The position numbers and the translations under genes were made by a program. The notes under the pieces were generated by a model that saw only the letters and a program-made list of their open reading frames with translations, was not told the DNA's origin and ran no database searches. 38,935 bases of DNA from positions 171 through 39,105 of the forward strand of contig PLZC01000101.1 in the NCBI GenBank assembly GCA_003151985.1, read 5' to 3'. The stretch comes from Acidobacteriaceae bacterium. Lineage in GTDB: Bacteria; Acidobacteriota; Terriglobia; Terriglobales; Acidobacteriaceae. Numbering within the stretch: the stretch's first letter is position 1; each line of letters starts with the position of its first letter. Shown one piece after another: positions 17,384 through 24,468 of this stretch.

Positions 17384-17520
17384 GGCTGCGGAAAAAGGCC
17401 TCAAGCGTAGCGAAATGGCCCAATGGCGTCCCGCAGGGGCTACAGCCCATTGGTTCTATTGGCTTTATCGGCACGACTAAAGTCGTGCCCTTTCAAAACG
17501 ATGCCTTTTTCCGCAGCCTG
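17384..17520. repeat. Palindromic repeat element bounded by inverted GCCTTTTTCCGCAGCC
   Basis: The left end (17384-17399) reads GGCTGCGGAAAAAGGC and the right end (17503-17518) is its exact reverse complement. Inside sits the perfect palindrome GGCACGACTAAAGTCGTGCC (17470-17489). The same palindrome core and right end recur at 30954-31060, and the right end again at 23478-23493. No open frame lies inside, so it resembles a small non-autonomous element or a modular dispersed repeat. Confidence 0.7.
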
Positions 17521-19930: not shown

Positions 19931-21244
19931 TCAGCGCCAATAGTAGTACCCGCCGGTGACGAAGTACGGCCGGTAATACACCGGCGGGTAGCGGTAGGGA
20001 TAGTTACCATAGGGGCCTGCCGGGCGGTAATAGCCGGGGCGATAGTAGCCGGGGCGCCGGTAGAGCGTGGGGCCGCCGGGATAAAGACCCTGCGCCAGAC
20101 GGGCTGCTTCTTCCCGGCTCACCGGGTTGACTGTGACCGGTTCCGCCAGGTGGAATTCGACCAGTGCTTCAGCAGGAATCCAAATCCCCGGTCCCGGAGA
20201 AGCTGCCGAGGCTGCCGCGCCGGCGCCCGCACCTACACCGGCGCCAATGGCTGCTCCTTCACCACGACCCACCACGCCGCCGATAATCGCGCCGATCAAG
20301 GCGCCGCCAATCATGTGGCCGGCGGTCGACTCGCCTTTGCCCGGGCTTCTAACCTTGAACTGATCGCTGCGAAGCTCGTAGTTCTGCCCGCCGAGGTCAA
20401 GAGAGGTGAGCCGAAGCGCCAATTCCGCGCTTCCGGTCAACTCGCCCGCTCTCCTGGTCTCGGTGACGACTCCGTGAACGGTGGCGCCGCGCGGAATAGC
20501 CAAAACGCCGCCGAAAACCACGTCTTGAATCACTGTGAATTGAACCGGGGTGCCTTCTTTGGCCCTTCGGCTTTCCAAAGGCTCGTTGGTCCGGAGCTGG
20601 ATCAAGGTTCCCTGGGGAACGGTTACTGGACCTTTGGGAGCCTCGTAATAATCCCGTGGCGGAGGAGGATAACCCTGCCGCCCATACTGAGGCCGCGAGT
20701 CCGGAGGCGGAGGGGCCTGGGCGCGATCCTGGTCTGGGGCGCGCTCACGATCCCAGGGCTGGCCCTGGGCTTGATCCTGGGCTTGATCCTGGGCTTGATC
20801 CTGACCGGGGGCCTGCTGCCGAGGCCGGGGCATTGGGCCATTGTCGCCTTGGGGTTCAATGCCAGGATCGCTGCTGTCCGCGCTGGTATCGGGGGGTAGC
20901 GCGTTCTGAGCGTCCTGGGGATTGCCCACCTTCAGGTTGTTATGCACCACGGTGACGCCGGTGACGTGGGCCACAATGGACTCCGCCAATTCCCGTGAGG
21001 CGTCGCTGGCCACGGTTCCCGCGAGCGTAACTTCGCTCTGAATGGTGGCGGCGGTAATGAGGTCTTTCTTTAGCGCAGGCGATGCATCGAGGGCATGCAC
21101 AACATCCATTTCGATCTGTCCGTCGCTGCGCTGGCCGGTCGCCGGCGGCGCACTTTGGGCTATCGCCATTACGCTGGAAAGGGCAACCGCCCCGGACCAA
21201 GCCAACACACGGGGAGCAAAACTCTTCAGCAATTGCCGTATCAT
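19931..21244 (-). CDS. Exported BON-domain / glycine-zipper protein with Tyr-Pro-rich tail
   Basis: A 437-residue envelope protein. A signal peptide (VLAWSGAVALSSVMAIAQS) is followed by one BON domain (about 42-108; VTLAGTVASDASRELAESIVAHVTGVTVVHNNLKV), a fold that binds membranes or phospholipids. Next comes a low-complexity Gln/Asp/Pro linker that includes three DQAQ repeats from a 12-bp tandem repeat. A beta region (PVTVPQGTLIQLRTNEPLESRRAKEGTPVQFTV) precedes a glycine-zipper segment (GGALIGAIIGGVVGRGEGAAIGAGVGAGAGA) that can insert in membranes. The C-terminal 50 residues are Tyr/Arg/Pro-rich and end in YYYWR. GAGGAGAC lies 6 nt before the ATG. It is probably a stress or envelope-integrity protein of the OsmY/glycine-zipper style; that function is inferred, not shown. 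Confidence 0.82.
   Translation of the reverse strand: MIRQLLKSFAPRVLAWSGAVALSSVMAIAQSAPPATGQRSDGQIEMDVVHALDASPALKKDLITAATIQSEVTLAGTVASDASRELAESIVAHVTGVTVVHNNLKVGNPQDAQNALPPDTSADSSDPGIEPQGDNGPMPRPRQQAPGQDQAQDQAQDQAQGQPWDRERAPDQDRAQAPPPPDSRPQYGRQGYPPPPRDYYEAPKGPVTVPQGTLIQLRTNEPLESRRAKEGTPVQFTVIQDVVFGGVLAIPRGATVHGVVTETRRAGELTGSAELALRLTSLDLGGQNYELRSDQFKVRSPGKGESTAGHMIGGALIGAIIGGVVGRGEGAAIGAGVGAGAGAAASAASPGPGIWIPAEALVEFHLAEPVTVNPVSREEAARLAQGLYPGGPTLYRRPGYYRPGYYRPAGPYGNYPYRYPPVYYRPYFVTGGYYYWR
20765..20800. repeat. Three 12-bp tandem repeats inside the BON-domain gene
   Basis: CTGGGCTTGATC occurs three times in direct succession and encodes DQAQ units on the minus strand. Because the unit is a multiple of three, copy number can change without breaking the frame, so the linker length may vary between strains. 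Confidence 0.85.
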
Positions 21245-23493: not shown

Positions 23494-23739
23494 TGCTCTG
23501 TTAGCTAAACTTTTGCGTTCCCATTCGCCAGCTTCACGGCCGGCTGCGATGCCGGAAATCGTACATGGCGCCGAAGGTAAAGCCGCGCGGATTCAGGGAG
23601 TGGGGACCAAAGAGTTCAGGCCAAAACTGGTACTCGTAGTCCACACGGGCCCAAATGTGGTGGTAGATCCGATACTCAACTCCCCCGCCAGGCCCGTAGA
23701 CGGTTCGCGTGTCATGCGTATACAGGGGGAGTTGTGGAA

Positions 23740-23747
23740 TTGTAAAA
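23740..23747. repeat. Target-site duplication, left copy
   Basis: TTGTAAAA directly abuts the left terminal repeat; the identical octamer abuts the right one at 23917-23924. Because the repeat ends with A on this side, the duplication length is formally ambiguous (8, 6 or 4 bp, depending on how many A/T pairs are counted as repeat). Confidence 0.85.
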
Positions 23748-23916
23748 GTGGGGTAGCTGCCTAAGTACAGTGCGCGCTATAGGTTGTGGTTGCTGGTTCA
23801 CTAATGCTGCGATCTATACTCTGTGTTTCCAGCATGATAGCTCACTATCTGGCGGTATGCGGCCCGAAGAGATGGCCCCATATATTGGGGCTGCTGTACT
23901 TAGGCAGCTACCCCAC
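23748..23916. mobile_element. MITE-like non-autonomous element, 169 bp
   Basis: The ends are perfect inverted repeats of 23 bp: 23748-23770 starts GTGGGGTAGCTGCCTAAGTA and 23894-23916 is its reverse complement. The element is flanked by 8-bp TTGTAAAA copies and sits inside a barrel gene. It has no open frame long enough for a transposase, so it must have been moved by an enzyme encoded elsewhere. Eight-bp duplications occur with several IS families (for example IS66, IS1595 and ISL3), but I do not recognise the terminal repeat and leave the family open. Intact ends and duplication suggest a recent insertion. Confidence 0.9.
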
Positions 23917-23924
23917 TTGTAAAA
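23917..23924. repeat. Target-site duplication, right copy
   Basis: TTGTAAAA follows the right terminal repeat directly and matches 23740-23747 exactly. Confidence 0.85.
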
Positions 23925-24468
23925 TTCAAGCCGCCAAATGCCATGTCGAATTTGCCGTAAGGGTGGATGTTATGGAAATGGTGCCAGGAATAAATTGCTC
24001 CTCCGCCGGCGGTCACATAGCGAAGGTTTTTCTCGTTGACGCCAGGGTTGAGGCTGACGTCGCGGGCTTCGATCTCAACACCGAGTCCTTGCAGAAAGGC
24101 CGGGAGCACGGTGGGGTAATAGTCCACCCACACTGTACCGCCTTCCATTCTCGTAGTGGCCCAATCCGTGTCCCAATAGTTAAAGCCACCGCCCACGGAT
24201 ACCGGAAGGCCACCTTCCCTGGCGGCGGCGGCGACTTGCGAAAAGGCCGGAGCGGCCACGGTGAACATAAGGGCAAACAGCGCTAGCTTAAGATAAAGCT
24301 TCGAGAACATGCTGCGTCTCCTTCATAACGCAAAAGATGTGATCTCCTTGCGATGATTCAAAGAAATATTGGGAATCATTTGCCATCGACTATACTTCAG
24401 TAACAGCGATTTACAACTTTCACGTTACTTTCGACTTTTCAACACCTGTTTGCACGGGCCCGAAGCAC

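Follow-up and report, generated by a model that had tools for sequence, protein, structure and literature searches.

A MITE with IS1595-family ends interrupts an outer-membrane barrel gene in an Acidobacteriaceae bacterium

The window analyzed here, a 38,935-nucleotide stretch of DNA from an Acidobacteriaceae bacterium, carries a 169-bp insertion at 23748-23916 that interrupts an outer-membrane barrel gene on the minus strand (24310-23534). We consider it very probable that the insertion is a non-autonomous MITE, most likely derived from an IS1595-family IS whose interior was lost or replaced. The MITE bears IS1595-family ends and appears to have moved recently.

The terminal inverted repeats of the MITE are perfect over 23 bp. 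GTGGGGTAGCTGCCTAAGTACAG opens the element at 23748 and an exact reverse complement of it closes the element at 23916, so that the left repeat occupies 23748-23770 on the plus strand and the right repeat 23894-23916 on the minus strand. The octamer TTGTAAAA abuts the element at both sides (23740-23747 and 23917-23924) as the two copies of a target duplication. The first-pass annotation had described these repeats, the matching octamers and the lack of a transposase within 169 bp, all of which were confirmed from the sequence. An inverted-repeat scan also returned the MITE ends, in this case as 34-nt arms (94%) because the flanking octamers are partly palindromic. With up to three mismatches allowed, the window contained the 22-base terminal repeat at these two places only and 100 shuffles contained none, and the MITE pair accounted for 12 of the 16 exact inverted 14-mers lying less than 1 kb apart, with three at the runner-up site. 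The short element, with its 23-bp repeats, has no similarity in its interior (23771-23893) to the IS transposase sequences tested: when the MITE was compared by blastn (word size 7, E up to 10) with six sequences that were IS1595-related or bore the ends, the middle of the element yielded nothing beyond chance matches of 11 bases. Passages of a study of archaeal MITEs state that these have little beyond the repeats in common with their partners (PMC3852290); a MITE middle without an IS match is therefore not unusual. Elsewhere in the window, another, shorter inverted repeat is found at 17384-17518 (three consecutive exact 14-mers, 16 bp), and a minus-strand ORF at 19931-21244 contains a short run of QDQA repeat units inside a Pro/Gln-rich region.

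Removal of the MITE and one octamer restored an in-frame gene of 199 codons plus a stop (600 bp), in agreement with the clean frame of about 200 codons proposed earlier, and the predicted empty-site sequence is AATTGTAAAATTC. In its present state, the ORF that begins at 24310 on the minus strand is 136 aa long, its stop codon being supplied by the right inverted repeat. Only about 131 of the 199 native residues precede this stop (136 codons in total), so that the last strands of the protein would be lost and, with them, probably its function. The 5′ part of the gene (23917-24310, minus strand) matched positions 2-112 of OMP_b-brl (PF13505) with 18.8 bits, and the 3′ part (23534-23747, minus strand), which retains its own stop, matched positions 123-175 with 23.1 bits. 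Both scores were below the curated Pfam cut-off of 28.7 bits, whereas the joined protein scored 50 bits over positions 3-175 of 175, confirming that an outer-membrane barrel gene had been interrupted.

When the first 131 residues of the barrel protein were searched against the genus, 52 of 80 genomes, including this one, matched at E up to 1e-10. We examined 31 barrel loci, namely 29 homologue loci among the larger number of matches from this search and two paralogues in this genome. All 33 homologous ORFs in these loci matched both barrel halves at E up to 1e-3 and spanned the insertion point. None of the 33 ended at the MITE junction, so the possibility raised in the first-pass annotation that homologues naturally stop there found no example. 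In 20 aligned homologues, the junction fell just before a variable-length loop. The neighbors of the barrel gene, which we take from their sequences to be gpi (glucose-6-phosphate isomerase) and an HD-like gene, were found within the 1.5-kb flanks at 5 and 11 of the 31 loci, respectively. At two syntenic loci (L164 and L169), the barrel gene was intact between both neighbors in the same order as in the window. Identity to the closest intact relatives is no more than about 47-50%, and a DNA-level empty site was therefore unavailable for comparison. The two paralogues persist in this genome, one with an open frame of 201 aa (48% identical) and the other with one of 207 aa (43% identical), and their retention may be the reason that loss of the interrupted gene is tolerated.

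The genome containing the window is a draft of 468 contigs and is 73% complete. Within it, the end pattern of the MITE was present at 20 places at up to three mismatches, and the reversed control was found at none. The copies comprised two whole and identical elements, two with an NN gap and further halves at contig ends. The second whole copy, on C384, is 100% identical to the MITE in the window and has a different octamer, TACCGGTA, at both sides. Thus, the same MITE occurring elsewhere without a duplication, which the first-pass annotation had named as an argument against insertion, was not what this copy displayed, and a second identical copy with its own octamer, together with ends shared with an IS of the IS1595 family, upholds the MITE assignment. 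On C159 and C359, both MITE ends surround an NN gap and are flanked by the duplicated octamers TAACCCCA and ATGTAGAA, respectively. The suggested genome search for the terminal repeat therefore did reveal other copies, C384 among them, but no full-length or autonomous IS with these ends was found among the assembled sequence of this genome.

The halves at contig ends were of two types. Comparison of 5 CCTAAG-type with 7 CCTTAG-type ends gave four cross pairs with a common octamer (C1/C254, C273/C185, C341/C38 and C359/C80) and no same-type pair. Column shuffles of the contig-end octamers yielded a mean of 0.07 pairs, and three or more pairs appeared in none of 5000 shuffles. Since C359/C80 competes with the scaffolded right side of C359 itself, three of the pairs are clean. 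These pairs imply that the assembly failed to span copies of an element whose two ends differ, perhaps the full IS. The ends on C376, C293, C310 and C444 had no pairing partner. The right-hand flanks of C359 and C80 also have ATGTAGAATTTACAA in common, seven bases past the octamer, before they diverge. At 1501-1601 of locus L018 (C272) lies a decayed element, roughly 100 bp long, whose ends are related; TGATGCAA flanks it on either side, and there is an extra A at the left.

The parent of the MITE, which had been left open in the first-pass annotation, is, as judged from sequence similarity, an IS1595-family IS and can be identified at the family level. At contig ends of a genome of the same genus (G020) and on C374 of this genome, the shared repeat leads into a transposase C-terminus. 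C374 holds a decayed IS fragment with one in-frame stop. The plus-strand start of the MITE (23748-23791, a stretch assigned to the minus strand) matched the right end of this IS, the end that holds the last transposase codons, with 90.9% identity over 44 bp, the last 21 bp of which lie beyond the repeat. The other MITE end (23880-23916, minus strand) was 83.8% identical over 37 bp to the left end of an IS in G109, also of the same genus, but resembled the right end on C374 as well (85.3%, 34 bp), the likeness being weak past the terminal repeat. In an ungapped comparison of positions 24-46 of this second end, 12 of 23 bases matched IS left ends and 10 or 11 of 23 matched right ends, counts that do not clearly mark it as of IS-left origin past the repeat.

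G109 contains a whole IS of 1036 bp with GTGGGGTAGCTGCCTTAATACAG at one end and two substitutions in the right end, and no matching octamers were found at the flanks of this copy. Its 322-aa transposase matched DDE_Tnp_IS1595 over positions 1-153 of 153 with 114.9 bits (E 4e-33, cut-off 27) and the NCBIfam IS1595 transposase with 203.6 bits (cut-off 75). The VDET motif is present. An N-terminal zinc ribbon was also detected (42.2 bits, cut-off 25.4, E 8e-11); this domain is absent from the IS1016 group of the IS1595 family. The family itself was reportedly founded in a 2009 paper by Siguier. A search with the transposase C-terminus matched 18 of 80 genomes of the genus at E up to 1e-6, mostly with 46-71% identity, and none of the transposase loci checked outside G109, G020 and this genome had MITE ends at up to six mismatches. 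Two PF12762 loci above cut-off in this genome (C240 and C50) were rejected as direct parents for lack of MITE ends, and so were five loci in G020 whose open frames are long; a single match there, at L070, had seven mismatches.

When the MITE sequence was searched in 99 relatives at E up to 0.01, five genomes matched, all of the same genus: this genome, G020, G025, G031 and G041. The G041 match covered 32 interior bases only (84%) and was probably due to chance. In G020, 72 ends lay on contigs (70 after ends with an identical 20-base flank were merged); the IS1595-type IS is there in dozens of copies and the assembly is broken by them. A second short element of about 243 bp, with the same repeats, a different interior and ATACGCAA at both sides, is located at about 1504-1747 of L025 (G025 contig C53). 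A scan for the exact 21-base end found two stretches among genome contigs and none among viral contigs. One of the two, L054 from a MAG labelled Granulicella, leads into a transposase N-terminus that is 73% identical over 140 aa; beside the end in the other, L053, no transposase was found. In a class-wide search, the end pattern was matched in 4 of 399 genomes (this genome, G242, G168 and G441), a sample that says little about the genus since only 14 of its genomes were in it and G020, G025, G031 and G109 were left out. In G242, which belongs to another genus of the same family, IS ends occur at L226 and L227; the transposase pieces there show 95% (306 aa) and 98% (63 aa) identity with the G109 transposase, a closeness suggesting recent transfer or recent spread. 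The single matches in G168 and G441 were taken as chance, the only nearby transposase similarity being a 31% match (E 0.22) in G168.

At the paired sites of this genome, 8 bases adjoin the repeat, with the exception of C272, where the left octamer is separated from the end by an A. In G020, 33 left ends were compared with 37 right ends. Pairs in which all inner bases matched numbered 4, 16 and 11 in registers 8, 9 and 10 (shuffle means 0.47, 0.73 and 0.2, respectively), and no fully matching pair was found in registers 11-14; some ends entered more than one pair, and the pair counts are therefore upper bounds on the number of sites. Each register-9 pair had at least 8 contiguous matching bases, and the inner 8 bases matched in every register-10 pair. 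These results fit a constant 8-bp duplication plus an extra A at the left, an extra T at the right, or both. An additional A or T between IS end and duplication, as seen at many sites in this relative, is mildly unusual. Because an A lay outside the repeat at all 33 left ends of G020 and at 34 of its 37 right ends, element bases and target preference are not fully separable here. It is possible, and we propose it only tentatively, that the parent is a member of an IS1595 lineage that has yet to be described, probably one of Acidobacteriota, with a transposase that is one base imprecise at either end and favors A/T-edged targets, and that it drives a recently moved MITE family.

Other explanations of the locus were weighed against these data. 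A real MITE might have been moved by an unrelated transposase, its IS1595-like ends having been captured or having converged. The MITE middle is unlike the tested IS sequences and one end is weakly IS-like past the repeat; however, the 44-bp match (91%) extends beyond the repeat into the end of an IS transposase gene in the same genome, and the 8-bp duplication agrees with that given for the IS1595 family in excerpts of PMC8101967. We regard this explanation as improbable. An assembly artefact, in which the interior of a repeat was misplaced within a contig, has some basis in the fragmentation and incompleteness of the draft, in the many contigs that break a few bases past the repeat, in the NN scaffolding of C159 and C359 and in the identity of the two assembled MITE interiors. 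Yet the contig is unbroken through both junctions with matching octamers, the barrel gene is in frame once the MITE and one octamer are removed, and the octamer at the other whole copy differs, which together make an artefact very improbable.

The remaining possibility is that the hairpin is a structured RNA or terminator at a natural gene end and that nothing was inserted. The minus strand folds strongly (-77.9 kcal/mol, z -7.6), but the interior alone folds as its shuffles do (z -0.8), Rfam at gathering cut-offs gave no match, and scans for terminator-like sites across 23500-24400 and for promoter-like sites within the MITE found neither. A function of the hairpin as RNA or terminator was rejected on these grounds and, as homologues do not end at the junction, a natural gene end at this position is scarcely credible. 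Insertion of a MITE derived from an IS1595-family IS thus remains the preferred reading.

Known systems resemble the MITE in part. It has terminal repeats and IS-end sequence in common with an IS whose protein fits the IS1595-family models, and it has 8-bp duplications, which parts of PMC8101967 describe as usual for the family; the MITE differs from IS1595-family ISs in its 169-bp length and lack of a transposase. ISApl4, an IS1595-family member of Actinobacillus pleuropneumoniae, has 8-bp, mostly A/T-rich direct repeats and many copies within one genome, according to passages of PMC12561309. It is, however, an autonomous IS of 712 bp with 14-bp repeats (GGGGCTGTACTAGA), whereas the MITE is non-autonomous and has 23-bp repeats of another sequence. 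MITEPye1 of Paracoccus yeei is likewise described, in excerpts of PMC11578231, as short, foldable and without a transposase, with IS-like terminal repeats and direct repeats, but it has IS1182-family ends. No IS1595 MITE from Acidobacteria appeared in the titles or abstract openings of the papers retrieved on IS1595, MITEs and Acidobacteria.

These comparisons are compatible with the following course of events. An IS1595-family IS would have lost or replaced its interior, possibly by internal deletion, giving rise to a MITE that lacks a transposase but still has the terminal inverted repeats and some 44 bp from the right end of the IS. An IS1595-family transposase acting in trans would recognize the MITE ends, and the MITE would enter an AT-rich target through cuts staggered by 8 bp, the repair of which would leave the octamer duplication. 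In the present case, the insertion would have fallen in the barrel coding sequence, in a gene that the same two neighbors flank in two relatives.

The insertion is an ordinary kind of event and involves a known type of mobile element. For a group that has been little studied, it contributes a mobile-element family along with the type of IS to which it belongs, and it provides an example of an outer-membrane protein gene recently lost to insertion. In addition, the end sequences allow contig breaks in related draft genomes to be explained and annotated.
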